A DNA stretch of 64,000 bases from a virus: the IMG/VR virus record IMGVR_UViG_3300021962_006679, positions 1-64,000 of that record; one strand, given 5' to 3'. A program made the translations under genes and the position numbers. Below, piece by piece: positions 8,590 to 64,000 of this stretch (position 1 is its first letter; every line of letters begins with the position of its first letter). Below the pieces are notes generated by a model, which did not search any database, had not been told where the DNA came from, and saw only the letters and a program-made list of their open reading frames with translations.

Positions 8590-9921
8590 ATGTTAGAACT
8601 ATCATATGTTGTTCTTAGCGGTATTTTTGTGGGTTTGGTTGCAGGGCTATTGCCAGGTCTTGGCTCAACGGCAATATTACTATTGGCTCTGCCAGTTCTC
8701 TATACGCTTCCGCCAGAACTTTGTATAATCTACTATGCAGTAGCAATACAAAGTTCACAGTTTAGTGGAAGTGTGAGTGCAATTAATTTTGGAATGATGG
8801 GAGAACTTACTAGTTATCCTGCCCTTATGGAAAGGCAAAGCATTCTTAAAAACAATCTACAAAAAACTGCATTACGGTTTACTGCACTGGGAAGTGCTAT
8901 AGCCTGTATTATTCCTGCCTTAAGTTTGTACTGGTTACTGGAATGGTTTAAAGACCAGCATACTATTATGCGTACAGACTTTATATTCGGTATAACACTT
9001 GTTATAATATTATTTTGTTTACTTTATAAAAGCAACAAGAAAATAGTAAATGCTATATTAATTTTACTTGGTATTATTATATCTCAAGTAGGTTTAAGAA
9101 ATCAAGGAGCGGCAGAAAGAGAATTCCTAACATTTGGACAACCATGGTTATATGGTGGTATCCCAATGATAAGTGTACTTGCAGGACTAATTGCGGTGCC
9201 TTTAGTAATTAGGTATATCACCTGGAAAGAAAATAACGATGTAATTGGCATAAGCAAAGTAACAGAAACTGCTCCTAGATTTCCGTTTGCAAGTGTTTTA
9301 CGCGGAGGTATCCTAGGATTGTTTACTGGTTTACTTCCTGCTATAGGCACACAAATCGGTAGTAACCTAGCATGGTATGTAGAAAAAAAACTAAAGCCAA
9401 GCAATAGTAATCAACATGTCATGGCTAGATTAGTTGCTGCTGAAACTGCAAATAATGGTAGTCAGATCACTGTTTTGGTTCCTTTGCTTATAATAGGTAT
9501 TGCTATTGTTCCAAGTGAAATGCTCTTGTTAAGCATACTGGAAACAAAATTTTGGATGCCTGGCCAGAACACATTTGATATATTAGGGTTGAACTTTTAC
9601 CAACTAATAATACTTTCATTAATAACTGCAAGTATTGTCTCATATCTTAGTTGTTATACTTTTCTATCCTTAATCTATCGTTTCTTAAAAAATAATCTTA
9701 TATTATTAAACCGATTAACATTAATAATAATGACCGTGGCAGTCGTATATTCAGGAAGTCTTGTAGAAGCAAGAATGTTTTTTCTTGCTACATTTATGGC
9801 TTTTGCTGGATTGGCTATATGGTTAAAAAATGTAGACTTTATTCCTTTTGTTGCTGGATATTTTATTGGAGATATCTTTATTGACAGTTGGGTAATATTA
9901 AGTTACATTTATAGTAATTAA
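8590..9921 (+). CDS. TctA-family large permease subunit (tripartite tricarboxylate transporter type)
   Basis: The 443-residue membrane protein has about ten hydrophobic segments. It carries the TctA features: an N-terminal VGLVAGLLPGLGSTAILLLA, a second copy LGLFTGLLPAIGTQIGSNLA, and the AAETANNGSQITVLVPLL segment typical of the second half. TctA forms the transport channel of binding-protein-dependent secondary transporters for carboxylates. Usual length is about 500, so it is somewhat short. No TctB small subunit lies next to it. The next genes are a periplasmic binding protein, PxpB and PxpC, which suggests 5-oxoproline or a related carboxylate as cargo. Translation starts at ATG behind TAGG. 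Confidence 0.85.
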   Translation: MLELSYVVLSGIFVGLVAGLLPGLGSTAILLLALPVLYTLPPELCIIYYAVAIQSSQFSGSVSAINFGMMGELTSYPALMERQSILKNNLQKTALRFTALGSAIACIIPALSLYWLLEWFKDQHTIMRTDFIFGITLVIILFCLLYKSNKKIVNAILILLGIIISQVGLRNQGAAEREFLTFGQPWLYGGIPMISVLAGLIAVPLVIRYITWKENNDVIGISKVTETAPRFPFASVLRGGILGLFTGLLPAIGTQIGSNLAWYVEKKLKPSNSNQHVMARLVAAETANNGSQITVLVPLLIIGIAIVPSEMLLLSILETKFWMPGQNTFDILGLNFYQLIILSLITASIVSYLSCYTFLSLIYRFLKNNLILLNRLTLIIMTVAVVYSGSLVEARMFFLATFMAFAGLAIWLKNVDFIPFVAGYFIGDIFIDSWVILSYIYSN

Positions 9922-9939
9922 ACATTTAAGGAGTAACAT

Positions 9940-10800
9940 ATGTTTAATAAAATTATGACTGGAGCTCTAGTCATTTTAGGCTTATCACTTGGAAACGCAA
10001 GTGCTAGCGAAACAATCAACTTCTTTGTTGGACATGGCAATGGTGGTTTGTCTAGTGCATTTCAAACCAAAGTAGCTACAGGTTTAAAAGACAAGGGTTG
10101 GAATATTAATTTTAAAATCATTGGTAACTGCGGGAAAGTAAAAGCGGACCTTGATAGTTCAAACGAGCCAATGATTGCTGGCTGGGGTGCTGATTGGAAT
10201 GCAGACAGTAAAAATGTTTGCTATAACCCACCATCAGCTGATGCTTTTGTTGATGTGTTTGTTATTAGTCCACGCCTATTATGTGGGCCATTAGGCGACG
10301 CAAACTTCAAACTCGAAAAAGGTAAGAAGTATGTAGTAGGTGTTAATGAAGGACAGAATCACCAAGTATTACTAAACGATTTAGGTGCGAAGTTAGGTAT
10401 AACTTTTAAAGTAGTTGAATATAGGAATTCAGGATTTATTAAACGTGCGATGCAGGCAAAAGAAATTGATGCATGGTATACTACAAAAGGTCTAGTTGAA
10501 CATCAATCCGGACAACAGAAATGTTTGTATGGTACTCTAACTACACCACTAGATGGTATTACTCCATTAAATACTGTACTTAATACAGACAATGTTTACT
10601 CAAGTTTCGTAGGATATCTTATCACTAATAATAAGTTTAGTGCAGATACCCGCAAGAAACTAGTAGCAGACATTAATGACATTATCAAAAGTGCTGAGTA
10701 CAGAAGTGCACTAAAGTCCACTGGTAGTTATGTAACTGACGATAACAGTGAAGCACAGGTAGACTATGTAAAGGCTACAGCCAAGGCTTTTGCAAAGTAA
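9940..10800 (+). CDS. Periplasmic solute-binding protein, TctC-like
   Basis: The 286-residue protein has an N-terminal signal peptide (residues 1-22, ending NASA) after AAGGAG. The mature part has TINFFVGHGNGGLS, which fits the ligand-loop position of TctC-type binding proteins, and the spaced segments IAGWGADWN and YVVGVNEGQNHQVLL of a two-lobed receptor. It would capture the substrate for the TctA protein encoded 18 bp upstream. Similarity to classical TctC is weak, so the family call rests partly on context. Confidence 0.7.
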   Translation: MFNKIMTGALVILGLSLGNASASETINFFVGHGNGGLSSAFQTKVATGLKDKGWNINFKIIGNCGKVKADLDSSNEPMIAGWGADWNADSKNVCYNPPSADAFVDVFVISPRLLCGPLGDANFKLEKGKKYVVGVNEGQNHQVLLNDLGAKLGITFKVVEYRNSGFIKRAMQAKEIDAWYTTKGLVEHQSGQQKCLYGTLTTPLDGITPLNTVLNTDNVYSSFVGYLITNNKFSADTRKKLVADINDIIKSAEYRSALKSTGSYVTDDNSEAQVDYVKATAKAFAK

Positions 10801-10802
10801 GC

Positions 10803-11465
10803 ATGAAGTTTTTAGATTACGGTGATCAAGGCCTACTGGTAGACTTTGGAGACACAGTCTCCCAAGAGTTAAACCAGGAAATCCTTGATTACTGTAATTT
10901 ACTCAGGGAAAAAAACTTTCCTGAGATAGCATATGTTATACCTACTTATAACAAACTTACAGTATATTTTAAATCACCACTAAGCGATCAAAATCCTGTT
11001 AGAAACTTTTTAAGTTCTAAAAATATAAGCCTAGTTAGCGGTAAATCTAAAACAATCGAAATACCTGCATGTTTTGAACCCGAGTTTGGGTTAGATATAC
11101 AACGGATAGCAGATTACTGTAACGTTACTTCCCATAAATTGATAGACCAATTTTGCAGCAAGCCATATTATGTATATGGTTATGGGTTTTTGCCAGGCAT
11201 GCCAAAATATGGTGACACAGATTTTATAGCACCCAAAAGATTAGATAAGCCCAGGGAAAATGTGCCCAAAGGTAGTATAGGTAGTGTAGAAAAATATTGT
11301 AGTGTTTACACTGAACAGATTTCTGGGGGGTGGAATATTATTGGCAGAACACCTGTGAAATTTTTTAACAAAGATAGTGAAAGCCCTTGTTTGGTAAATC
11401 CTGGAGATTTAATACAATATTTTCCTGTAACTTCCAAAGAATATAAAAATTATGCCAACAATTAA
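10803..11465 (+). CDS. pxpB: 5-oxoprolinase subunit B (PxpB / KipI / allophanate hydrolase subunit 1 family)
   Basis: The 220-residue protein has the full PxpB pattern: GDQGLLVDFGD at the start, YVYGYGFLPGMPKYGDTD in the middle, KPRENVPKGSIGSVEKYC and ISGGWNIIGRTPVKFF near the end. PxpB, PxpC and PxpA together hydrolyse 5-oxoproline (pyroglutamate) to glutamate using ATP. The gene starts 2 bp after the binding-protein stop and overlaps pxpC by 14 bp. KipI, a paralog that inhibits KinA, is the main alternative, but pairing with a transporter favours metabolism. PxpA is not in the window. Confidence 0.88.
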   Translation: MKFLDYGDQGLLVDFGDTVSQELNQEILDYCNLLREKNFPEIAYVIPTYNKLTVYFKSPLSDQNPVRNFLSSKNISLVSGKSKTIEIPACFEPEFGLDIQRIADYCNVTSHKLIDQFCSKPYYVYGYGFLPGMPKYGDTDFIAPKRLDKPRENVPKGSIGSVEKYCSVYTEQISGGWNIIGRTPVKFFNKDSESPCLVNPGDLIQYFPVTSKEYKNYANN

Positions 11466-12357
11466 ATTTTTAAATGCAGGACTACATTGTAGTTTTCAGG
11501 ATACTGGCAGACTAGGATATCAACATCTAGGTATTAGTCCCAGCGGATGTATTGACAATAAGATTTATAATTTAGTTGATACTGCATTAGATAACGCAGG
11601 CTGTGTTTTAGAGTTCGCTGAGATAGGGCCCAGTATACAAATAATATCAGGTACTGTTGTAGTCTGTTTAATTGGAGACTTTAACTTTAATATTATTAAG
11701 CAAGGTAAAAATTATACTGGCGATATTTTTAAAATTTACCACCTATACCCAGGAGATATATTAGAAGTAGGCAAAACTAAGGATTTAGTTTATGGTTATA
11801 TAGGTTTCAAAAATAGTCCTGGTCATACTCCTAGTTTTGGCAGTTATAGTATGAATAAGTATAATAAATTGGGATATAACAATGGAAACAATTTTAGTAA
11901 AGATGACATCTTATTTTTAAAACCAGCAAAAGATTTTGAAATTCTTAATCATGAACAAGATATTAGCCTTAGTAGTACAGATATCTTTGTAACACCTGGA
12001 CCACAATTTAATAAATTTACATTAACCCAAATAGATAAATTTTTTAGCAGTCAATATACAGTAACAAACAAACGTGACAGAATGGGCATGTGGTTAGATG
12101 GACCAAAACTAAAGTATCAGATAACCCAGGATTTAATGAGTGAAGGCATTGTTAGGGGAGCAATACAAATAACCCCAAGCGGTGATTGTGTTACTCTTTT
12201 AAGTCACCATGGTGTCACTGGAGGATATCCTAAAATTGCTATTGTAAGTAACATTAGTTTTAGAAATTTAGCTCAATGTAAAGAAGGTACTGATATAAAA
12301 TTTGTATTAATTGATGAAATAGAAAGTAGACGTTTATATGAACTTACCAGTAGATGA
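11452..12357 (+). CDS. pxpC: 5-oxoprolinase subunit C (PxpC / KipA biotin-dependent carboxylase-like family)
   Basis: The 301-residue protein shows the family start LHCSFQDTGRLGYQHLGISP with SGCIDN, then VLEFAEIGPSIQI, and near the end SEGIVRGAIQITPSGDCVTL with GVTGGYPKIA. It is the partner of PxpB. One departure stands out: the usual Asp-x-Gln-Thr before TGGYP reads SHHGV here, so the acidic residue is lost, which could change activity. The stop lies inside the next gene (20-bp overlap), so the operon continues into the PP-loop gene. Confidence 0.87.
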   Translation: MPTIKFLNAGLHCSFQDTGRLGYQHLGISPSGCIDNKIYNLVDTALDNAGCVLEFAEIGPSIQIISGTVVVCLIGDFNFNIIKQGKNYTGDIFKIYHLYPGDILEVGKTKDLVYGYIGFKNSPGHTPSFGSYSMNKYNKLGYNNGNNFSKDDILFLKPAKDFEILNHEQDISLSSTDIFVTPGPQFNKFTLTQIDKFFSSQYTVTNKRDRMGMWLDGPKLKYQITQDLMSEGIVRGAIQITPSGDCVTLLSHHGVTGGYPKIAIVSNISFRNLAQCKEGTDIKFVLIDEIESRRLYELTSR

Positions 12358-29417: not shown

Positions 29418-29842
29418 AAGTACTAATTTACGGATTACCCGGTGCTGGTAAAAGCACCCTTGCAGAACCTTTCGCTAAACTAATTGGTGGTGTTTGGATC
29501 AATGCAGATAAAGTTAGAGAACGATATAATGACTGGGACTTTAGCCCAGAGGGTAGAATTCGTCAAGCACAACGCATGCGTCATCTGGCAGATGGTGTAG
29601 TAATGGCTGGCAAAACTGCTGTTGCTGATTTTGTTTGCCCAACAGAACGAGCTCGTAAAGAGTTCGGTGCAGACTTTACTGTATGGATGGATACTATAGA
29701 AGCTGGCAGATTTGAAGATACTAATGCAATGTTTGAAAAGCCAGCCAAAGTAGACTACCATGTTAAGGCTTGGTTCGATGACACCCCGCAACAACTAATA
29801 GATGTTGTTAAAGTATGGATGGAGAGAAACGATGAGCTTTGA
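29414..29842 (+). CDS. P-loop kinase, adenylylsulfate kinase (CysC)-like
   Basis: The 142-residue protein has the Walker A GLPGAGKST at residues 7-15, then WINADKVRERYNDWDFSPEG with RIRQAQRM, which matches the NADxxR and NDWDFS-x-EGR segments of APS kinases. APS kinase makes PAPS, the donor for sulfotransferases. The protein is shorter than CysC (about 180-200). A related phosphoramidate or other kinase is an alternative. It overlaps the HxGH nucleotidyltransferase. Confidence 0.75.
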   Translation: MKVLIYGLPGAGKSTLAEPFAKLIGGVWINADKVRERYNDWDFSPEGRIRQAQRMRHLADGVVMAGKTAVADFVCPTERARKEFGADFTVWMDTIEAGRFEDTNAMFEKPAKVDYHVKAWFDDTPQQLIDVVKVWMERNDEL

Positions 29843-30305
29843 CTTCCAAAAACCAACCGTCCAAATGCTGGGCCGCTGGCAACCCTGGCACGATGGACAT
29901 ACGGCTCTGTTTAAGAAAGCATTAGCTATAACAGGTCAAGTATGTATCATGGTGCGAGATGTAGGTGGTATTGTTGGTTCTGATGCCGGTGCCGGGCGCA
30001 CCGCAACCGTACAAAGTGATAATCCTTTTGATTTTAAAACTGTAGTTGAGAACATTAAAATTGGTTTAGGCAAACATGGTTTTGCCTATTATGAAGAATA
30101 TACAGTTATGCTAGTGCCTAATATTGTTGATATTAGTTATGGTCGCGGAGTAGGTTATACATTTACTGAACATGATCTAGGCGCAGCCGTACACGATATT
30201 AGTGCAACAAAGATTCGTGCTCGGATGCGTGAAGAAGGTACTCTTGCTAAAGTAGAAACACTACAAGTTGATCATGTAGCTGTAGTTGGCGGTGCTAACG
30301 ATTAG
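29832..30305 (+). CDS. Cytidylyltransferase-like nucleotidyltransferase (HxGH family)
   Basis: The 157-residue protein has GRWQPWHDGHTALFKKAL near the N-terminus, the GRFxPxHxGH signature of the NMNAT/PPAT/cytidylyltransferase superfamily, and ISATKIRARMREEG near the end, the ISxTxIR nucleotide-binding motif. It overlaps the kinase upstream by 11 bp. Whether it supplies APS, a CDP-alcohol or NAD-type products cannot be told. The N-terminal domain of the protein at 61398 belongs to the same superfamily. Confidence 0.82.
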   Translation: MSFDFQKPTVQMLGRWQPWHDGHTALFKKALAITGQVCIMVRDVGGIVGSDAGAGRTATVQSDNPFDFKTVVENIKIGLGKHGFAYYEEYTVMLVPNIVDISYGRGVGYTFTEHDLGAAVHDISATKIRARMREEGTLAKVETLQVDHVAVVGGAND

Positions 30306-44559: not shown

Positions 44560-45087
44560 ATGTTACCCCGAAGACATTTCTTCACGGGGGTGCCTGGTAG
44601 TCGCTGGAGTGGCGTTAGCCAAGAAATAGAGTCCAACGACCTCTACGACACATCAGACCGCACACCCGAACGCACTTATTCACATAGCGAATATTCAGGA
44701 CATGTTGGAGCATACTTTGGCACTGGCATGGAATTTCCTGCAGACCTCTCTCCGGAAAACTTGGACGCACCCTACACTGGCACTGGCTGTAGGTTGCATA
44801 AAAGTCATGAGTGGGCGTATAAACTCAACAAGATAGTAAAAATGTATCCTGACTCCTGGATTACACTTGTATACAGACCAAACGAAGCAAGTTTTGATTG
44901 GTGGAAACAAGCAGGAGGATGGAATATTACATACCCCAATTATGATTTTTATGTGGATGATGCAGGCATGCGTAGACACATAGCAATTATGAATGATTGT
45001 ATTGCAAAGTTTGCGGGCAAGCACCATTTAAAATGGAAGCAAATATTAAAACACAAGGATGTTTATGTAGCAACATGGAAACCCTAG
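44560..45087 (+). CDS. Sulfotransferase-like P-loop protein
   Basis: The start is ATG 44560 behind AAGGA. The 175-residue protein begins RRHFFTGVPGSRWSGVSQEI, which resembles the 5'-phosphosulfate-binding loop (PxGSxW) of sulfotransferases. Later GCRLHKSHEWAYKLNKIVKM and SWITLVYRPNEASFDWW fit the 3'-phosphate region (RP). The APS-kinase-like gene at 29414 could supply its donor PAPS. It overlaps the TctA gene by 13 bp. Confidence 0.55.
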   Translation: MLPRRHFFTGVPGSRWSGVSQEIESNDLYDTSDRTPERTYSHSEYSGHVGAYFGTGMEFPADLSPENLDAPYTGTGCRLHKSHEWAYKLNKIVKMYPDSWITLVYRPNEASFDWWKQAGGWNITYPNYDFYVDDAGMRRHIAIMNDCIAKFAGKHHLKWKQILKHKDVYVATWKP

Positions 45088-46499
45088 TAGCACTCATAGC
45101 CGGAACCCTATACGGACTTGTAATTGGTATTATACCCAGTGCAGGTGCCACTACGGGTTTGGTTGCACTATTTGGGGTAATACATTACTTTGTTAGTGAG
45201 CCCTATTTGGGTGTAGTGTTTCTAATGGCAGTTGTTGCTGCAAGTACAACAGGTGATAGTTTTACAGGTATACTGCTGGGCATACCAGGTGCTAATAGTG
45301 CTGCTGCAACAATGGTAGATGGGTTTCCACTAGCACAACAGGGCAGAGCAAGTTATGCTATTAGTGCCGCAGTCACTACAAGCACTGTAAATGGTTTACT
45401 CTGGGGATGTTTGGTGTTCCTATTACTCCCCTGGTATAGCAACTTACTAATGATATTAGGCATACCTGAATTGTGGGCATTTGTAGTTCTTGCACTTGCC
45501 ACAGTAGGGTTTGTTAGTAATAGTTTTTGGATAAGAAGTTTAGTAGCAATAGGTGCTGGTATATTTTTAGGGCTAGTAGGTGTAGATCCAGAAACAAACG
45601 CTCCTCGTTTTACTCTGGGTTGGTTTTATCTACAGGATGGACTACAGTTAATGCCGGTAGTTGCTGGACTTTTTGCTATACCAGAATTAGTAGCAGGACT
45701 ACAGCGTACAAGTACGGCTAGAATTGTTCACAGTGAAATTTGGTTAGGAATGCGAGTAACCTGGGAAAACCGTTGGTTAGCCTTGCGTGGCGGCTTTATT
45801 GGTGCCTTTATTGGACTACTACCAGGACTAGGCGGCGCAATGGCGGACTGGATGGCATATGGTAGCGCAGTTGCAGCAAACCCTAAAGAACATTTTGGCC
45901 ATGGAAATATCAAAGGTGTTATAGGACCAGAAGGTGCTAACAATGCACAAAAAGCCACAAGTATGATACCTACAGTGTTATTTGGTATTCCTGGCGCACC
46001 ATTTGCTGCGGTACTGATGTCATTGTTTATGTACTTAAACTTTGAACTAGGCACACCCGACATTGCTCAGGATATAGAATTTTTTACTAGTATGAGTTTT
46101 GGTTTCCTAGCAGCAACAGTACTAGTAGCAGTACTGTGTATAATACTAATGAAACCAATTACAAGAATCTGCACAGTGCCCTACAAGTATTATTTTCCAG
46201 TGCTGCTACTGGTAATAGTTTGGGCAAGTATGCAGTATACAGGCGGATGGGAAGATTTTGCAATATTAGCAGCATTTAGTGTATTAGGTATATTATGTAA
46301 ACATTATAAGTTTAGTAGGCCTGCACTTTTACTGGCTTTTATACTTGCAGACAAGATTGAGAGTTTTACCCTACAACTCACAAGTCTTTACACGGTAGGG
46401 GATTTAATTACAAGGCCCGTGTTCCTAGTTATTATGCTGGCAACCCTGGGCATCTTTGCATACAGTTTGAAGAGAAAAGGATCAATCAATTATGCGTAA
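45075..46499 (+). CDS. tctA: TctA, large permease of a tripartite tricarboxylate transporter
   Basis: The 474-residue protein has about 11-12 membrane segments and canonical TctA motifs: LVIGIIPSAGATTGLVALFG, GDSFTGILLGIPGANSAAAT with MVDGFPLAQQG, and the mirrored FIGLLPGLGGAMADWMAY with IGPEGANNAQKATSMIPTVL. It is a more typical TctA than the protein at 8590. The ATG at 45075 lies within the end of the preceding gene. TctC follows with an 8-bp overlap. Confidence 0.93.
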   Translation: METLVALIAGTLYGLVIGIIPSAGATTGLVALFGVIHYFVSEPYLGVVFLMAVVAASTTGDSFTGILLGIPGANSAAATMVDGFPLAQQGRASYAISAAVTTSTVNGLLWGCLVFLLLPWYSNLLMILGIPELWAFVVLALATVGFVSNSFWIRSLVAIGAGIFLGLVGVDPETNAPRFTLGWFYLQDGLQLMPVVAGLFAIPELVAGLQRTSTARIVHSEIWLGMRVTWENRWLALRGGFIGAFIGLLPGLGGAMADWMAYGSAVAANPKEHFGHGNIKGVIGPEGANNAQKATSMIPTVLFGIPGAPFAAVLMSLFMYLNFELGTPDIAQDIEFFTSMSFGFLAATVLVAVLCIILMKPITRICTVPYKYYFPVLLLVIVWASMQYTGGWEDFAILAAFSVLGILCKHYKFSRPALLLAFILADKIESFTLQLTSLYTVGDLITRPVFLVIMLATLGIFAYSLKRKGSINYA

Positions 46500-47535
46500 A
46501 TTATTATTAACACTAGCACTAGTGTTTGGTGTCTCACCAGCACTAGCAGATTATACACTCGTTGTACCACAAAAGCCAGGTGGCGGTACAAGTGTCTGGG
46601 CACAAATTGTTGCCACAGAATGGGAAAAGCATCTAGGCGAAAAGATTGTTATTAAGCACATTCCAGGTGCTAGAGACATTCCAGGCTTTAATGAGTTCCA
46701 TAACGAACTACAAAAAGACCCAAAGACTATTATGGTATCACATGGGGGTAATGGCGTAAGTTTTCTACAGGAAAAAGTAGACTACAATTATGCTGAGTAT
46801 GACAGCGTAGGTTTAATGAACTTGGATATTATTTCCGGTATTCGTAAAGACTACAAGGCTGGCGAAAAGATTAAGTTTGCGGCTGGATCAGGTATGGTAC
46901 CAGAAGGACTTGCTATTGCACAGTTACTTTGTGGCAACTTGGATAGTTTAGACGCATACACAGCCTGCTTTAACGAAAAAGTTACCTGGGTTCCAGGTAT
47001 GAGTGGCGGAGAGCGTAGACTAGCATTCAAGCGTGGAGAACTAAACGGCACAAGAGAAAATCCAGCAGCATACAAGAAGCATGTAGAGTCCAACGCAGAT
47101 GCACAACTTTGGTTTACACATGGCATTCTACAAAAAGATGGGTCACATGCTGATGACCCTAACTATCCAGGATACCAGTTTGAGATCTTATTTGAAAAGC
47201 AATGGGGAGAAAAGCCCAACAATGTGCTTTATCCTGCTTACAAACTAGTTAAAAGTTTCCGTGATGGTTTACAAAAAGCATTTTGGGTTAGTAAAGACAA
47301 TCCCAATTTGGACCATTTGCGTAAGACACTTACAGCAATGACTCGTGATCCTGCAAGTGCTGCCGCTATCCAAAAGAATGTTGGCAATTATGAATGGCTA
47401 GTTGGTGATGCTGGTAACAAACAGCGTGACACTCTAATGACATTTATTACAGCAGATGCACTAAAAACACTAGTAGATTTTAACACCAGTGCTTTTGGTT
47501 TAGAAAGTGTTTACAAGCCAGAACTAGTTCAGTAA
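46492..47535 (+). CDS. tctC: TctC-type periplasmic substrate-binding protein
   Basis: The 347-residue protein has a signal peptide (MRKLLLTLALVFGVSPALAD, cleavage after ALA), then YTLVVPQKPGGGTSVWAQIV, the start of the TctC lobe with the ligand-binding loop, and GARDIPGFNEFHNELQKDPK. It would deliver a carboxylate to TctA. The ligand cannot be told from the sequence. It differs clearly from the binding protein at 9940. Confidence 0.88.
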   Translation: MRKLLLTLALVFGVSPALADYTLVVPQKPGGGTSVWAQIVATEWEKHLGEKIVIKHIPGARDIPGFNEFHNELQKDPKTIMVSHGGNGVSFLQEKVDYNYAEYDSVGLMNLDIISGIRKDYKAGEKIKFAAGSGMVPEGLAIAQLLCGNLDSLDAYTACFNEKVTWVPGMSGGERRLAFKRGELNGTRENPAAYKKHVESNADAQLWFTHGILQKDGSHADDPNYPGYQFEILFEKQWGEKPNNVLYPAYKLVKSFRDGLQKAFWVSKDNPNLDHLRKTLTAMTRDPASAAAIQKNVGNYEWLVGDAGNKQRDTLMTFITADALKTLVDFNTSAFGLESVYKPELVQ

Positions 47536-47780: not shown

Positions 47781-48308
47781 ATGGACATTAAACAAGTTGT
47801 AGAAAACACCAAGAAAATATATATGAGTGAAAGTAGTCTTGAATTGCTCATGGACTTTGAGCGTGTTCTTGACGAAGTAGACCTGTATGCGTTTAAAAAC
47901 TGGAAGCGTGGAGAACTTGTTGAAGGGCCAATCAAAACTAAACACTGGGTAGAATGTACCTTTATGTACCCACAAAAGTTTATGCCTGATCCAGATGGTG
48001 GCAAGCGTTTATTGGGCTATCATGCTATTGTAGAGTACAGGAAAGATAAACTTACAACACCAGTAAAAGTTGAAGATTATAGTGATTTTAGACCTGGAAC
48101 TAAAAAACCAAAACTAAAGGAAGATCCTGTTTGGTTAGTTAAGATCCGTATGCCAGCAGAACTAGTAAAAGACGCACAAGAGGGCTTTGTAGAACTAGAG
48201 GGCAAAGAAATAGACTTGAGCGAACTAGACCAAGCATATGATGAGGGTGTTCAGGACAGTGGTGATATTATGAATCAACAACAAGTTACACCTGGAGTAC
48301 CACAATGA
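47781..48308 (+). CDS. Conserved T4-like phage protein, 175 aa
   Basis: DIKQVVENTKKIYMSESSLE then LLMDFERVLDEVDLYAFKNW and GELVEGPIKTKHWVECTFMY is a pattern I recall from conserved marine T4-like phage proteins. The end is Gln-rich and acidic (QDSGDIMNQQQVTPGVPQ). It is paired with the next gene by a 4-bp overlap. A virion or assembly role is likely but not shown. Confidence 0.75.
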   Translation: MDIKQVVENTKKIYMSESSLELLMDFERVLDEVDLYAFKNWKRGELVEGPIKTKHWVECTFMYPQKFMPDPDGGKRLLGYHAIVEYRKDKLTTPVKVEDYSDFRPGTKKPKLKEDPVWLVKIRMPAELVKDAQEGFVELEGKEIDLSELDQAYDEGVQDSGDIMNQQQVTPGVPQ

Positions 48309-48853
48309 CCCAGATCACTGAAGGTTTAGAGCGTGATGATCTAGTAGACAGAGTGCAACCTAAAGTGCACTTTGACGAATTTGCTCCTAAAATGGGCAGT
48401 GATGATCAGGTTATTGTAAGCAGTTTTATGGTATTGGGCCAGGATGCTGCATATGATTTAGAAAACTTTTTAGAAAAAGGTTATCCATGGATATTGGACG
48501 CCGAGACCAGTGCTGGCGAAAAAGAACCAGGTTACTATATTGTGTTTGTAGAAGCAGAGCGTAGAACCGGGTTTCCAGAAAAGTTCATGAGTTTAATAGG
48601 CGATTTACAAAACATTACTGGCATTAAACCTAGTGATTGGATTATGAAATACTATCAGGGCACAAGACGTGATCCCAAGTATAAACTTACAAGCCAGAAT
48701 ATTATTACACACGTACCGCTAAGTCCGAGAAAATATAGACAAAACAAAGAATCAGAAAACATGCTAGAGAGCATGCTAAACATAGCAAGAGTTCCACGAA
48801 AACAAGGTGATACACATGAATTTAGACAATCTCAGAAAACAGCTAGAAATTGA
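48305..48853 (+). CDS. Conserved T4-like phage protein, 182 aa
   Basis: DDQVIVSSFMVLGQDAAYDL and GYYIVFVEAERRTGFPEKFM suggest an alpha/beta fold, followed by WIMKYYQGTRRDPKYKLTSQ. The C-terminus is basic. It is coupled to the previous gene and overlaps the lysozyme gene by 38 bp. Function unknown. Confidence 0.72.
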   Translation: MTQITEGLERDDLVDRVQPKVHFDEFAPKMGSDDQVIVSSFMVLGQDAAYDLENFLEKGYPWILDAETSAGEKEPGYYIVFVEAERRTGFPEKFMSLIGDLQNITGIKPSDWIMKYYQGTRRDPKYKLTSQNIITHVPLSPRKYRQNKESENMLESMLNIARVPRKQGDTHEFRQSQKTARN

Positions 48854-49256
48854 TGAAGGAGTAGTATACAAAGTATATTTAGACCACCTAGGGTATCCAA
48901 CATTTGGCATAGGACATTTGATTAGGGAATCAGATCCAGAACATGGCGAACCAGTAGATACTCCAGTAAGTGAAGACAGAGTTGTAGAGGCATTTGAACA
49001 GGATGTGCAATCAGTATTATCAGACTGTAATAAACTTTACGGAGACTTTGAAGACTTACCAGAGGAAGCCCAGGAAATAATTGCTAATATGATGTTTAAC
49101 CTTGGATATCCAAGATTGTCCAAGTTTAAAGGAATGAAACAAGGAGTTGATACTAGAGACTGGAATAAGGCAGCAGATGAAATGATAGACAGTAACTGGT
49201 ATCGTCAAGTGGGCGCAAGGGCCCAAAGACTCGTAGATAGAATGAGAGCCATTTAA
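48816..49256 (+). CDS. T4-type lysozyme (GH24 endolysin)
   Basis: The start MNLDNLRKQLEIDEGVVYKV at 48816 aligns with T4 lysozyme. Glu13 (IDEG), Asp in VYLDHLGYPTFGIGHL and the following Thr form the GH24 catalytic E-D-T set. RLVDRMR at the end matches the family C-terminus. It cleaves peptidoglycan. Spanin genes follow within 1.5 kb, so this is the lysis module. A baseplate-lysozyme role is less likely, since the domain stands alone. Confidence 0.92.
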   Translation: MNLDNLRKQLEIDEGVVYKVYLDHLGYPTFGIGHLIRESDPEHGEPVDTPVSEDRVVEAFEQDVQSVLSDCNKLYGDFEDLPEEAQEIIANMMFNLGYPRLSKFKGMKQGVDTRDWNKAADEMIDSNWYRQVGARAQRLVDRMRAI

Positions 49257-49267
49257 GGAGCATAAAC

Positions 49268-49510
49268 ATGGCCACATGGAGAAAAGGACACGGCGTTGAC
49301 CCTGTCGGAAACATTACTGAAGCAGACATTGATACATGGTATGCTAGTAAAGATCGCACTATAGTAGCAGGGCATGACGATGCTGACAGTTATGTTAGAA
49401 AAGTAATTGTTGCTGGCATTGGTGTAGGCCACACAGTAAAAAACAAAGTTAAAGCAGGTAAGTTTTGGCTACAAATTTCAGGACCAACTATTAACAAAAT
49501 TTGGCAGTGA
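49268..49510 (+). CDS. Hypothetical protein, 80 aa
   Basis: AAGGAG precedes the ATG. ATWRKGHGVDPVGNITEADI then DTWYASKDRTIVAGHDDADS and a glycine-rich IVAGIGVGHTVKNKVKAGKF. No family recognised. It sits between lysozyme and the spanins. Confidence 0.68.
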   Translation: MATWRKGHGVDPVGNITEADIDTWYASKDRTIVAGHDDADSYVRKVIVAGIGVGHTVKNKVKAGKFWLQISGPTINKIWQ

Positions 49511-49514
49511 GACA

Positions 49515-50126
49515 ATGCGAATTAAAGAAATTTTAGAAGCAGTAGCCCAGGGCACAATTCCCCCTCAAGCTCAAAGAAAAGTACCACAAGGCACTGGCGC
49601 AATGCCAGACGAGTTTGGCGCAAGAACTATGGGTCAGGGCACAGAAGTTAGTGCTAGTGGTAGACAAACTACCTATAACAAGGATGGTTCCAGTGTTAAC
49701 ACTAGTGCACAAGGTCAGTTTACTAGAGATAAACTTGGTCGTGTTACTCAGGTTCAAACTCCTCGTATAGCTGGTCTTCAACAAACAAACAAGTACGATC
49801 CGGGATCAATTGGCAATAAGCCTACTAGTCAGTCAACTAATTTTAATTATAAGTTGGGTAAAGCTGAAATAGACGCTACTATGCCTGGACCTGCTAGCCA
49901 GGCTGATATCAATAAAGCTACTGATATAAAAGTTAAGTATGGTAATGCTGGAATGCAAGCAACTAGAGGGCCTGATGGTAAACTTACTACTAGTACAAGT
50001 TATGATTTTGGGCCCAATAAAGTCTCTGCAAAAGACGATGGCAGTATTGACGTTCTTAATAAAAAAACAGGCCAAACTTATAAGACATCAACTGCCGCAA
50101 TGGCGGCCGGTAAAGACGGAATTTAG
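49515..50126 (+). CDS. Low-complexity Thr/Ser/Gly-rich protein, 203 aa
   Basis: The N-terminal MRIKEILEAVAQG tag resembles the start of other virion-associated polyproteins in such phages (compare MKINEAVQQV at 61398). The rest is repeat-like and disordered (SASGRQTTYNKDGSSVNTSA, RDKLGRVTQVQTP, ADINKATDIKVKYGNAGMQA). No enzyme motif. It may be processed or form fibrous structure. Confidence 0.65.
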   Translation: MRIKEILEAVAQGTIPPQAQRKVPQGTGAMPDEFGARTMGQGTEVSASGRQTTYNKDGSSVNTSAQGQFTRDKLGRVTQVQTPRIAGLQQTNKYDPGSIGNKPTSQSTNFNYKLGKAEIDATMPGPASQADINKATDIKVKYGNAGMQATRGPDGKLTTSTSYDFGPNKVSAKDDGSIDVLNKKTGQTYKTSTAAMAAGKDGI

Positions 50127-52150: not shown

Positions 52151-53161
52151 ATGAAAAACATTTTAATAACCTTAGCAGCCCTTGTATTGGCTGCAACAAC
52201 AACACAAGCAGTTGCAAGAGATCAAATCAAGACCGTAGGCTCATCTACGGTTTTTCCTTTTGCAACTGTAGCTGCTGAAACATTTGCCAAAAACGGCAAC
52301 AAAGCACCTATTATTGAATCAACTGGCACAGGTGGTGGCATGAAGCTATTTTGTGCTGGCATAGGCGTACAGCACCCAGACTTGACAAACGCAAGTCGTG
52401 CAATTAAAAAGAACGAAGTTGAAACTTGTAAAAAAAATGGCGTTACTCCATTAGAAGTTAAGATAGGTTTTGATGGCATTGCAATTGCAAACTCTAAAGA
52501 AGGTGCAAAAGTTTCATTGACCCTTAAAGATGTATTCCTAGCACTAGCAAAGAATGTGCCAGATGGTAAGGGCGGAATGATACCAAATCCATACAAAACA
52601 TGGAAAGACGTGCGTAGCGATCTCCCCAACCAGCAGATCGAAGTTTTAGGGCCACCACCAACATCAGGTACAAGAGATGCATTTGTAGAAATTGCAATGG
52701 AAGGTGGAGCAAAGCAAATTCCAGAATTAGCAGAACTTCGCAAGTCCAAGAAAAAAGTATTTCAAGCAATAGCACACACACTTCGTGAAGATGGTGCTTT
52801 TATTGAAGCAGGCGAAAACGATAACCTGATTGTCCAAAAACTAGTGGCTAACCCAAAAGCATTTGGTGTTTTTGGTTTTAGTTTCTTAGACGCTAACGGT
52901 GACAAGATTCAAGGTGCAACTGTAGAAGGTGCACAACCAACATTTGAAAACATTGCAAGTGGCAAATACAAAGTAAGCCGTTCACTTTACTTTTATGTAA
53001 AGAAAGAACACTTAGCCAGCATTCCAAACCTAAAAGAATATGTACAATGGTTTGTAAGCGAAAGAACTATTGGTGAAGAAGGTACAGCGGTCGATAAGGG
53101 ACTTATTCCTTTACCAGCAGCAGATCTTAAAAAACTTCAACAAACAGTTGACGCAATGTAA
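52151..53161 (+). CDS. pstS: Phosphate-binding protein PstS
   Basis: The 336-residue protein has a signal peptide (KNILITLAALVLAATTTQAV), then IKTVGSSTVFPFATVAAETF, ESTGTGGGMKLFCAGIGVQH (phosphate loop), ASRAIKKNE, and PPTSGTRDAFVEIAM, all PstS signatures. It binds phosphate for the host PstCAB transporter, which is not encoded here. The Pho-box-like repeats 45 bp upstream support a phosphate-stress role, as known for cyanophage pstS. Confidence 0.95.
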   Translation: MKNILITLAALVLAATTTQAVARDQIKTVGSSTVFPFATVAAETFAKNGNKAPIIESTGTGGGMKLFCAGIGVQHPDLTNASRAIKKNEVETCKKNGVTPLEVKIGFDGIAIANSKEGAKVSLTLKDVFLALAKNVPDGKGGMIPNPYKTWKDVRSDLPNQQIEVLGPPPTSGTRDAFVEIAMEGGAKQIPELAELRKSKKKVFQAIAHTLREDGAFIEAGENDNLIVQKLVANPKAFGVFGFSFLDANGDKIQGATVEGAQPTFENIASGKYKVSRSLYFYVKKEHLASIPNLKEYVQWFVSERTIGEEGTAVDKGLIPLPAADLKKLQQTVDAM

Positions 53162-61397: not shown

Positions 61398-64000
61398 ATG
61401 AAAATAAATGAAGCAGTTCAGCAGGTTGTAGCCATATATCCTGGCAGATTTCACCCTTTCCATAAGGGTCACGCCAGCGTCTACAACTATCTTCGCAACA
61501 AGTTCGACACTGTTTTCATTGCTACAAGTGATAAAGTAGACCCGCCACGCAGTCCTTTTAGTTTTGCTGAAAAGCGAGAAATGATGATTGCTGCTGGTAT
61601 TCCGCCCAGTGCTATTGTCCAAACTAAAAATCCTTATCAAGCACAAGAAATACTACAAGCATACGACCCAGCAACAACCGCAGTTGTGTTTGCTGTTAGC
61701 GAAAAGGATATGGCTGAAGATCCTAGATTTAGTTTTGCTAATAAGAAAGACGGGTCCCCAAGTTATTTCCAGCCTATGGCGCCAAACGCAAAACAAATGC
61801 AGTCCTTTGACAAGCATGGTTATATTACTACAGTGCCTACACTAGATTTTACTGTAGCAGGCGAACCCATGCGTAGTGCTACAGAGCTACGCCGCAACTT
61901 TGCAAATGCTGATCCCGAAACTCAAAAGACAATGGTCAATGATTTGTATGGTGCGTATAATGATAGAGTTTACCAAATACTAAGCAGCAAACTTGCAGAA
62001 AGTTTAATGTTAGAAGACTATGCTAAACTAACCAATATTATAAATCGTATCTGGCAACTAGACCTAGAACGTCCACTAAACGAAGAAGTTAAACGCAAAG
62101 TTCTAGCAAACATAAAGTTGGCTACAGAAGCCTGGAGCGAAAAGTACAAGCGTAGCATAAACTGCAACAATCCAAAAGGATTTAGCCAACGAGCTCATTG
62201 TCAGGGTCGCAAAAAGAACGAAGACATAAATGAAGCATTTGATAGTCCTTATCCACTGGAATGGCAAGTCGAAGCACCCAATGAGTATAGTGCTTGGGCA
62301 AAAATTCCTTTTCAAGGTGGCGATTTTAGCTGGTTAAATGTGGACTTTGATCAACCAACACAGGGCAATTTTGCTATTGAATTTACACTAGGCGGCAGAA
62401 CCAAAGCATCAGGGAAAGGAGATGAGTTTAGGATTTTCGCTACTGTTATAGAAGCAATTAAGCAGTGGTGGAAAAAAATAGATCAACGATTTGTTGATAG
62501 CATATACTTTAGTGCATCAAAAGATCCTAACGACAGCGAACGCAGACATGTATTATATTCAAGATTTGCTAAACAACTTGCTAGCCAGATTGGTTATACA
62601 CTTGACGTAACAGATAAAGGCAGATCAGTATCATTTCTTTTAACCGCACCAAAGAGAACGTATCAAGTTAAAGAAGAGAGCGGACCTGAGGTCACAATGT
62701 GGACTAACCCAGACTGGTTTGGTGCAGATGTAGACACTGACTATTGGAATAAACAGCCTGTTAAAGTAATAGACATAGACAAGCTCGTCCCTTATGAACC
62801 AGAAGATAAGATGCAGGATCCCAAGTCTGCTGCTAATATGCAGGCTATTGCTAAAAGGATTCAAGCAGGCGAAAAGATAGATCCTATTGTTATCAGCAAA
62901 CATGAAGGCAAATGGTTGATACTAGATGGGCATCATAGATACTTTGCTAGTAAATTAGCTGGTGCTAAAAAAGTAAGAGTGGTAGTAGTAGATCCTAAAT
63001 ATATCACATGGCGTGATGATGTGCCAGATGAGGATTATTATAACGAAGTATTAGAGAACCAATACAGCGACCTGGAACTAGCAATCATGGAAGGCGGCCA
63101 CAGTCTAGAAGAAGGTGTTGGGCGTGATGTTGCTAACTGGGCAAAGAGACAGTATAGAAAAGTAGTACCCTTTACACAAGCAGATACAAAAGACATGATT
63201 GACAACATTGCTAAAGAAAAGGGTATAGATCCTCGTGTTATGCAAGCAATGGCAGACAAAGAATCTTCTTATAATACTGGCGCAATTGGCGACAAGGGCA
63301 AGTCACATGGGTTATTCCAGTTACAAAATATTGCAGTAAAAGACATCAATGACTGGTATAAAACAGATTATACTGACAGTGATAGAATGGATCCTGAGAC
63401 CAATGCTCGTATGGCTGCTATGTATTTACAATTAGCAAAAGACAAATACGGTGCTAAAAATGATGCGGAAGCTATCGCTATGTTTAATGGCGGACCCAAG
63501 GCCTTAACTAACCGAAATGCAATAAATTATGCCAGAGATGTTGTAAGCAGAATGAAACGCAACCAACAACGAGTGGTTAGAGAAGCAGGCGTAGGCAAGA
63601 TTACCAAACAAAATGCAACCAAAGACGCTCCTATTGGCAGCGAGTTTGCTAATGTTAAAAAGTTAGGTTTGGGTAGCGGCAAGCCACCTGAACTACACAA
63701 AAAGGCTCGTAAGAACAGCGACCCAAATACATTATTCAATATTGGATTGGCGGAAGGCAAAGAAGGCAGTTACCTACTACAACTAGAGCGTGACGATGAT
63801 CTGCTAGTATTACACATTACACATAGCAGAACAGGCAAGCGCACCGAAGTGCGTGGCAAACCAGATTACGAGGGTGATGGATACGATCCCAATGATCAAC
63901 TGCACCAATTGCTTGACAAGATTGGTAAGGCAGCAAGCATTAGCGACTTAATGAATGGCGAACTAGTAAGCATCAACCCTGTTCATCCACAGGGCCCAAG
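61398..64000 (+). CDS. Giant multidomain virion-type protein: nucleotidyltransferase, ParB-like and lytic transglycosylase domains (partial)
   Basis: At least 867 residues are open to the window edge. Residues 10-170: HxGH nucleotidyltransferase (VAIYPGRFHPFHKGHASVYN; MRSATELRRNF). Residues 225-272: a linker with CNNPKGFSQRAHCQGRKK, a motif I recall from marine T4-like phage proteins. Residues 290-420: unassigned. Residues 455-531: ParB/sulfiredoxin-like domain (VIDIDKLVPYEPED, LILDGHHRYFAS). Residues 598-705: SLT-type transglycosylase (MADKESSYNTGAIGDKGKSH, GLFQLQN, MFNGGP) with Glu622 as catalytic acid. It may be a cargo protein delivered at infection. The late box gives a leaderless mRNA. 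Confidence 0.8.
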   Translation, partial: MKINEAVQQVVAIYPGRFHPFHKGHASVYNYLRNKFDTVFIATSDKVDPPRSPFSFAEKREMMIAAGIPPSAIVQTKNPYQAQEILQAYDPATTAVVFAVSEKDMAEDPRFSFANKKDGSPSYFQPMAPNAKQMQSFDKHGYITTVPTLDFTVAGEPMRSATELRRNFANADPETQKTMVNDLYGAYNDRVYQILSSKLAESLMLEDYAKLTNIINRIWQLDLERPLNEEVKRKVLANIKLATEAWSEKYKRSINCNNPKGFSQRAHCQGRKKNEDINEAFDSPYPLEWQVEAPNEYSAWAKIPFQGGDFSWLNVDFDQPTQGNFAIEFTLGGRTKASGKGDEFRIFATVIEAIKQWWKKIDQRFVDSIYFSASKDPNDSERRHVLYSRFAKQLASQIGYTLDVTDKGRSVSFLLTAPKRTYQVKEESGPEVTMWTNPDWFGADVDTDYWNKQPVKVIDIDKLVPYEPEDKMQDPKSAANMQAIAKRIQAGEKIDPIVISKHEGKWLILDGHHRYFASKLAGAKKVRVVVVDPKYITWRDDVPDEDYYNEVLENQYSDLELAIMEGGHSLEEGVGRDVANWAKRQYRKVVPFTQADTKDMIDNIAKEKGIDPRVMQAMADKESSYNTGAIGDKGKSHGLFQLQNIAVKDINDWYKTDYTDSDRMDPETNARMAAMYLQLAKDKYGAKNDAEAIAMFNGGPKALTNRNAINYARDVVSRMKRNQQRVVREAGVGKITKQNATKDAPIGSEFANVKKLGLGSGKPPELHKKARKNSDPNTLFNIGLAEGKEGSYLLQLERDDDLLVLHITHSRTGKRTEVRGKPDYEGDGYDPNDQLHQLLDKIGKAASISDLMNGELVSINPVHPQGP

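Follow-up and report, generated by a model that had tools for sequence, protein, structure and literature searches.

Polyvalent proteins, which include DarB/DdrB of P1 and the N4 virion RNAP-like proteins, have been described by Iyer et al. (2017; PMC5512222); a zincin-like MPTase was found in about 36% of them and is not obligatory. In T4, gp21 cleaves after L/I-X-E, and internal proteins are targeted by leaders of 10 residues (PMC9026906). Mass spectrometry of cyanophage virions has identified the putative cytidylyltransferase T4-GC190 in S-SM1 (PMC3037559), an NMNAT in S-SCSM1 (PMC9602691) and, in S-CREM2, a cytidylyltransferase together with the two hypothetical proteins whose genes lie between those of the terminase (PMC10665884). 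The specificity of gp21 and the detection of relatives in virions are taken from these papers; the reading frame, the domains, their shuffled orders, the coincidence of module edges with a motif, and the presence of protease and capsid genes in related records come from the present analysis. With a probability of roughly 0.7, the locus is best explained as encoding a late, head-packaged polyvalent polyprotein of a T4-related phage, whose cleavage by a gp21-like protease would precede injection.

Reading frame and modules of the polyprotein

The window analysed here comprises the initial 64,000 bases of a source record of 81,328 bases (G000). A plus-strand frame of 867 stop-free codons (61398..63998) was found to be open to the window end, as an earlier note reporting more than 867 residues in one frame had stated, and the full ORF extends stop-free from 61398 to 64352 of the record (984 aa, P0001). 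The GC content over the modules was even (0.38-0.46), the sequence contained no N, and fusions containing NTase, ParB and GNAT recur in other contigs; a frameshift or an assembly join, named in the note as what would refute its reading, was therefore ruled out, and neither was seen. The exact ParB-SLT adjacency was found in this polyprotein only, among the contigs compared. The features are as follows.

61398..64000 (+), on to 64352 of the record: polyprotein ORF, 984 aa in total
61398..62000 (+), aa 1-201: module 1, HxGH nucleotidyltransferase (NTase; NMNAT/cytidylyltransferase-like), from Pfam, PHROG and PDB profile matches
62127..62222 (+): module 2, CNNPKG segment (WSEKYKRSINCNNPKGFSQRAHCQGRKK), basic, with two Cys
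62235..62660 (+), aa 280-421: module 3, phrog_6387 domain (phrog_6387 match at aa 274-421, E 2.5e-11)
62760..62993 (+), aa 455-532: module 4, ParB/sulfiredoxin-superfamily domain with DGHHR, from profiles
63195..63536 (+), aa 600-713: module 5, SLT lytic transglycosylase with catalytic-type DKES
63585..63755 (+), aa 730-786: module 6, ITKQN segment, terminating in LFNIGLAE↓G (the arrow marks a predicted cut throughout)
63765..64000 (+; to 64031 in the record), aa 790-878: module 7, LERDD, from a 12-sequence alignment
64038-64349 of the record (+), aa 881-984: module 8, GNAT, beyond the window

The chain thus contains at least two domains of disparate activity (NTase, ParB-like, SLT, GNAT and others), and neither a tail-protein domain nor an HExxH motif was found in its 984 aa. 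The HxGH nucleotidyltransferase named in the earlier note is supported by Pfam CTP_transf_like (aa 13-100, E 4.3e-8, above cut-off), phrog_395 (E 6e-8) and PDB NMNAT/PPAT chains (E 5e-4), and the motif PFHKGH can be read directly in the sequence; the module is 71% identical to aa 1-201 of the related protein L004. It is similar to adenylyltransferases acting on NMN and pantetheine phosphate, and a role in adjusting host NAD is possible. The SLT transglycosylase, previously recognized by its DKESS, was confirmed by Pfam (aa 600-713, E 1.3e-13, above cut-off) and by the directly readable motifs DKES...GLFQL...FNGG; this region also matches the tail-type phrog_21143 and phrog_9570. The ParB-like domain with DGHHR stood at superfamily level, because it matched PHROG ParB families (to E 5.6e-8) and TIGR00180 ParB of NCBIfam (E 3.5e-7); the Pfam ParB_N match was weak (aa 465-531, E 0.0015, below cut-off). 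Its fold also matches the ADP-dependent serine kinase family (SerK), and the module could be an NTP-dependent nuclease or, given the SerK match, a small-molecule kinase. With an NMNAT-like NTase and this SerK match, modification of host nucleotides or DNA, as the note had suggested, is one possible role. PADLOC gave one weak match at the ParB part, which was rejected as a defence system.

These three domains had been listed correctly, but the C-terminal GNAT, the phrog_6387 module and three short modules had been missed. Modelled alone, the phrog_6387 module (AF2 pLDDT 80) showed fold similarity to the RNase E DNase-I-like subdomain (Z 9.7) and to GNATs (Z 7-8), its best Foldseek match being the PatZ GNAT (E 1.8e-4). 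The LERDD module, also modelled alone (AF2 pLDDT 86.5), gave nothing significant in the fold search. The GNAT matched Acetyltransf_7 at 881-983 (E 7e-4, below cut-off), was 50-52% identical to DarB-like proteins of phages Skulduggery and Parlo, and may act in protein modification. A 36-position CNNPKG profile had matches in S-SM2 and hundreds of viral contigs, and the ITKQN segment was common to L004, L022, L030, L042, L045 and others, in differing orders. No named family was found for some of the modules.

Among other genes, a second, stand-alone HxGH nucleotidyltransferase-like ORF (MLGRWQPWHDGHTALF) is located at 29802-30305. TctA/TctC-like tricarboxylate-transport and KipI/KipA-like genes, which are host-type and unusual for a phage, were recognized by eye at 8590-12357 and 44997-47535, as was a PstS-like gene at 52151-53161. 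Downstream of the polyprotein gene, at 65363-65851 of the record (L002:5363-5851), a small HELVH zincin-like protein is encoded, the C-terminal RASIGVPLSSGL segment of which is also present at polyprotein ends.

Shuffled relatives and virion proteins of cyanophages

L004, a protein of 1142 aa encoded on a contig of 202,913 bases, was the sole full-length relative found in IMG/VR. BLAST comparison with the 984-aa protein gave six segments of 46-80% identity in a different order.

aa 1-201, L004 1-201: NTase segment
aa 228-280, L004 340-392: CNNPKG segment
aa 271-415, L004 662-806: phrog_6387 segment
aa 716-786, L004 467-537: ITKQN segment
aa 782-884, L004 862-963: LERDD segment
aa 878-983, L004 559-664: GNAT segment

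Scans with single modules gave 165 further matches, including repeat views of the same contig, in many orders and with many partners, and additional module orders were seen in dozens of viral contigs. Partners of this kind were an entire Cu/Zn superoxide dismutase module (Sod_Cu E 2.3e-45) in a family polyprotein of 1140 aa (L027:5201-8623), a zeta-toxin-type kinase in L041, L045 and L048, and another ParB-like domain in L138. The L045 polyprotein is also fused to a HELVH peptidase (Peptidase_M78 E 5e-4), and in L022 a GC190-like NTase occupies the slot of the module 1 NTase. The polyproteins L045:7974-11642 and L048:2568-6188 end in the zeta-toxin-type kinase and carry another DGHHRW ParB-like domain. 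One protein of a 484-kb uncultured phage (L019:4608-7355) was seen to combine a ParB-like domain (DGHHRW), an HxGH NTase and a ligase-like domain.

Module proteins adjoin the terminase genes in S-SM2, S-SRM01 and S-SCSM1. T4-GC190 of S-SM2 belongs to phrog_395 (E 3.5e-104), the profile it has in common with the module 1 NTase, and starts MKSFFQFLSE↓AQ; the two are linked via this profile alone, as BLAST between them gave no similarity, and direct BLAST homology of module 1 to T4-GC190 was dropped. The virion cytidylyltransferase of S-CREM2 starts MKNFSSFLTE↓AD. S-SCSM1_29, an annotated virion protein, has a KDACYH module in common with ORF 69470-69661 of the window's record (67% identity), which lies 5 kb downstream of the polyprotein gene, and with G001 (82%). 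The published virion detection concerns relatives and their presence only. A virion cargo acting on entry, as the earlier note had proposed, is well supported by homology, that is by relatives in cyanophage virions and by junctions resembling prohead-protease sites.

Predicted cut-site motifs and head protease genes

The predicted sites in the polyprotein are listed below.

61404..61412 (+), aa 3-5: INE↓A, where a very short N-terminal leader ends, from the sequence
61992..62000 (+), aa 199-201: LAE↓S, end of the NTase module, where L004 homology stops exactly
62076..62084 (+), aa 227-229: LNE↓E, from the L004 comparison
62226..62234 (+), aa 277-279: INE↓A, from the L004 comparison
63084..63113 (+), aa 563-572: IME↓G and LEE↓G, from the L004 comparison
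63576..63584 (+), aa 727-729: VRE↓A (relaxed P3), from the alignment of relatives

The motif [IL]xE was found at seven sites in the 984-aa protein (E at 5, 201, 229, 279, 565, 572 and 786), and 7/7 were located outside the domain cores, which make up 71% of the protein (binomial P 1.7e-4). The control motifs E.[IL], [IL].D, [IL].K and [IL].Q were spread as expected, with no segregation from cores. Edges of the BLAST segments shared with L004 carried LAE↓, INE↓A, [VI].E↓A, GL.E↓, IKE↓A and INE↓S. Most close homologues showed K[IL]xE at the end of the NTase module, and INE↓A likewise precedes the phrog_6387 module of L004, there after the GNAT. Protease processing near CNNPKGFSQRAHC, suggested in the earlier note, fits the predicted INE↓A that follows this segment. 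IMEGG was also present in an L004 linker, and the VRE↓A position reads IDE↓A, INE↓A or VGE↓A in L004, L030 and L022. The phrog_6387-ParB junction contained VKE only, without [IL]xE. At the N terminus, the aa 3-5 site is kept as I-x-E↓A in L004, L027, L029 and L030. The leader MKINE↓A has five residues, compared to 10 in T4, and is missing in most of the NTase homologues L031-L049, which mostly start MNHLVIYPGRF or MDTVVIYPGRF; the chain may be recruited via another module.

At unique junctions in viral contigs, [ILVMFY].E was counted in 74 of the 91 windows to the left, where shuffling gave a mean of 34.7, and in 108 of the 147 to the right (mean 52.0); [hydrophobic].[DQ] was at chance level. 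The reversed E.[hydrophobic] was enriched as well, to a lesser degree (left 48/91 versus 34.8; right 84/147 versus 52.3), and part of the junction signal is therefore Glu-rich linker composition; the polyprotein linkers hold 26 of its 60 Glu in 29% of the length. Several module queries had been cut at sites, which biases such counts towards the sites. A register test, in which the core was set by a regular expression without the site, sidesteps this for the core, the sequences compared being related: in 45 of 58 distinct contexts upstream of CNNPKG a hydrophobic-x-E was found with Glu exactly 11 residues before Cys, other registers and motifs reaching at most 7 of 58, and 7/10 LERDD contexts had hydrophobic-x-E one residue ahead of the core. 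An edge test independent of module definitions gave ratios of 1.98 for [IL].E, 1.61 for E.[IL] and 0.92 for [IL].D, and was supportive, if less specific than the register test.

Stand-alone modules were found to have leaders that end in the same sites as internal junctions. The CNNPKG core is also N-terminal after a T4-like leader (MRAFEFITE↓KWSEKYKRS), and the internal junction thus looks like a reused leader end. Genome-wide, N-terminal leaders were weakly enriched (10/108 versus about 5%; 19/259 versus 3%) and are for this reason not the main support. A second run of small ORFs in the window (47781-50126) has leader-like N-termini ending in hydrophobic-x-E, for example MRIKEILE↓A at 49515 and MTQITE↓G at 48305; a lysozyme-like ORF (48807-49256) adjoins the leader-bearing small ORFs.

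Genes for gp20/portal, gp21 and gp23 were not found in the window's record, an 81 kb fragment, nor in G001, and the PF03420 and PF07068 profiles had no match in G000/G001; because other head genes are missing too, the absence of gp21 and gp23 is read as incompleteness of the fragments. The gp17 of G001 is 32% identical to that of S-SM2. Of 18 phage records with modules, 10 encode Peptidase_S77, the gp21 family, among them S-SM2 and S-SRM01; the family was also present in six further contigs with terminases 63-70% identical to that of G001, and all six have gp23 as well. In the gp23 of these six, L-x-E↓[ASNT] is conserved at residues 40-42, the place expected for a propeptide cut. One of 12 tested contigs of the terminase set (G033) carried the CNNPKG module. 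In S-SM2, the CNNPKG protein gp108 (L016:2818-3246) has the leader MKTLKQFLKE↓ followed by a near copy of the mature gp23 N-arm (TPTNSVGNGGYTSAGGQTVAGYD in gp108, QPTNAVGNGGYTSSGGQTVAGFD in gp23 after IAE↓).

Proposed processing, alternatives and known systems

Packaging, cleavage, injection and function of the 984-aa protein are what we infer, in the following way. A late precursor would be recruited into the prohead core, and a prohead protease of the gp21 type would cleave it after (I/L/V)-x-E, yielding the NMNAT-like NTase, the CNNPKG peptide, the phrog_6387 domain and the ParB-like domain as small proteins, and also the SLT transglycosylase, the ITKQN and LERDD modules and the GNAT. The released modules would enter the host with the phage DNA; the SLT module may aid passage at the cell wall, and the NTase, ParB-like and GNAT modules may target host NAD/nucleotides, nucleic acid/NTPs and proteins, respectively. 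The protein has the appearance of a precursor whose modules can be separated, instead of one combining several chemistries as formerly assumed. Because a site bounds each module, modules would be exchangeable between polyproteins and stand-alone leader-bearing genes.

The Glu-rich linkers and the enrichment of E.[hydrophobic] could also be accounted for by a polyvalent protein that is packaged and injected uncut, as polyvalent proteins can transfer intact (N4 vRNAP, plasmid ArdC; PMC5512222), with I/L-x-E as linker composition. This is considered unlikely, since hydrophobic-x-E stands in fixed register before module cores although the upstream contexts differ, [IL]xE segregates fully from the cores whereas E.[IL] does not, and stand-alone modules end their leaders with the same sequence. 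A cut chain would not need gp21 if it were processed by a zincin-like metallopeptidase, which is the published model for polyvalent proteins (PMC5512222); the HELVH protein is encoded within 1.1 kb downstream of the polyprotein gene, and L045 includes a fused peptidase of similar type. The lack of HExxH in the chain itself, the gp21-type motif at the junctions and the gp21 homologues in module-bearing phages make this quite improbable.

We regard as equally improbable that the protein is no virion cargo at all and is a late multi-enzyme fusion that works inside the host during infection, or else a lysin of the tail carrying accessory domains. SLT domains are frequent in tail proteins, as reflected by the phrog_21143 and phrog_9570 matches, but the chain lacks any detected tail-protein domain, and purified virions of several cyanophages contain NTase-family and module-bearing relatives. 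The head-packaged, gp21-cut polyprotein is therefore preferred. That it represents a general cargo-cassette system of T4-like phages of aquatic bacteria stands at about even odds: domains bracketed by gp21-type sites, including zeta-toxin-type kinases, Cu/Zn superoxide dismutase and NMNAT, would be chained or stand alone with a leader, the internal site being a reused leader end, and the head protease would both release the cargo and define the recombination units. If true, the injected proteins of T4-like phages could be listed by splitting late proteins at hydrophobic-x-E, the repeated finding of NMNAT-like enzymes in cyanophage virions would be explained, polyvalent proteins without a built-in peptidase would have a processing route, and the modules would suggest natural cassettes with which enzymes could be loaded into phage heads.

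Compared to SPN3US/phiKZ head-ejection proteins (PMC5694885, PMC10052503), the polyprotein would likewise be head-packaged, injected and cut by a gp21-related protease at a short motif ending in Glu, whereas phage lineage and motif are different and, in the literature consulted, shuffled multi-enzyme chains are not reported. With polyvalent proteins it shares the joining of numerous unrelated enzyme domains, ParB-like, lysozyme-type and GNAT among them, in a single phage protein, predicted injection, and a GNAT about 50% identical to the DarB-like GNAT of Skulduggery/Parlo; it differs in the lack of a zincin in the chain, in modules bounded by I/L-x-E, in the T4-related lineage, and in an NMNAT-like NTase and modules for which named families were not found. 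T4 IPI-III and Alt (PMC9026906) are similar in a leader ending in I/L-x-E, here a short and putative one, in the S77 head protease, here present in related records, and in injection, which for the polyprotein is predicted. T4 cargo proteins are single and cut at one or both ends, whereas the polyprotein chains many modules with internal sites, and no homology to T4 IPs or Alt was seen. The virion NMNAT/cytidylyltransferase of cyanophages (T4-GC190; S-SM1, S-CREM2, S-SCSM1) is an HxGH NTase of phrog_395 as well, detected in virions and preceded by a leader such as MKSFFQFLSE↓A, and stands alone there, whereas it is chained in the polyprotein. No description combining polyvalent proteins with T4-type head cargo was found in the open-access literature, to which the search was confined, and the novelty is therefore provisional. 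Polyvalent proteins and T4 internal head proteins are each known, and it is their combination, with cut sites serving as shuffling boundaries, that appears to be new.
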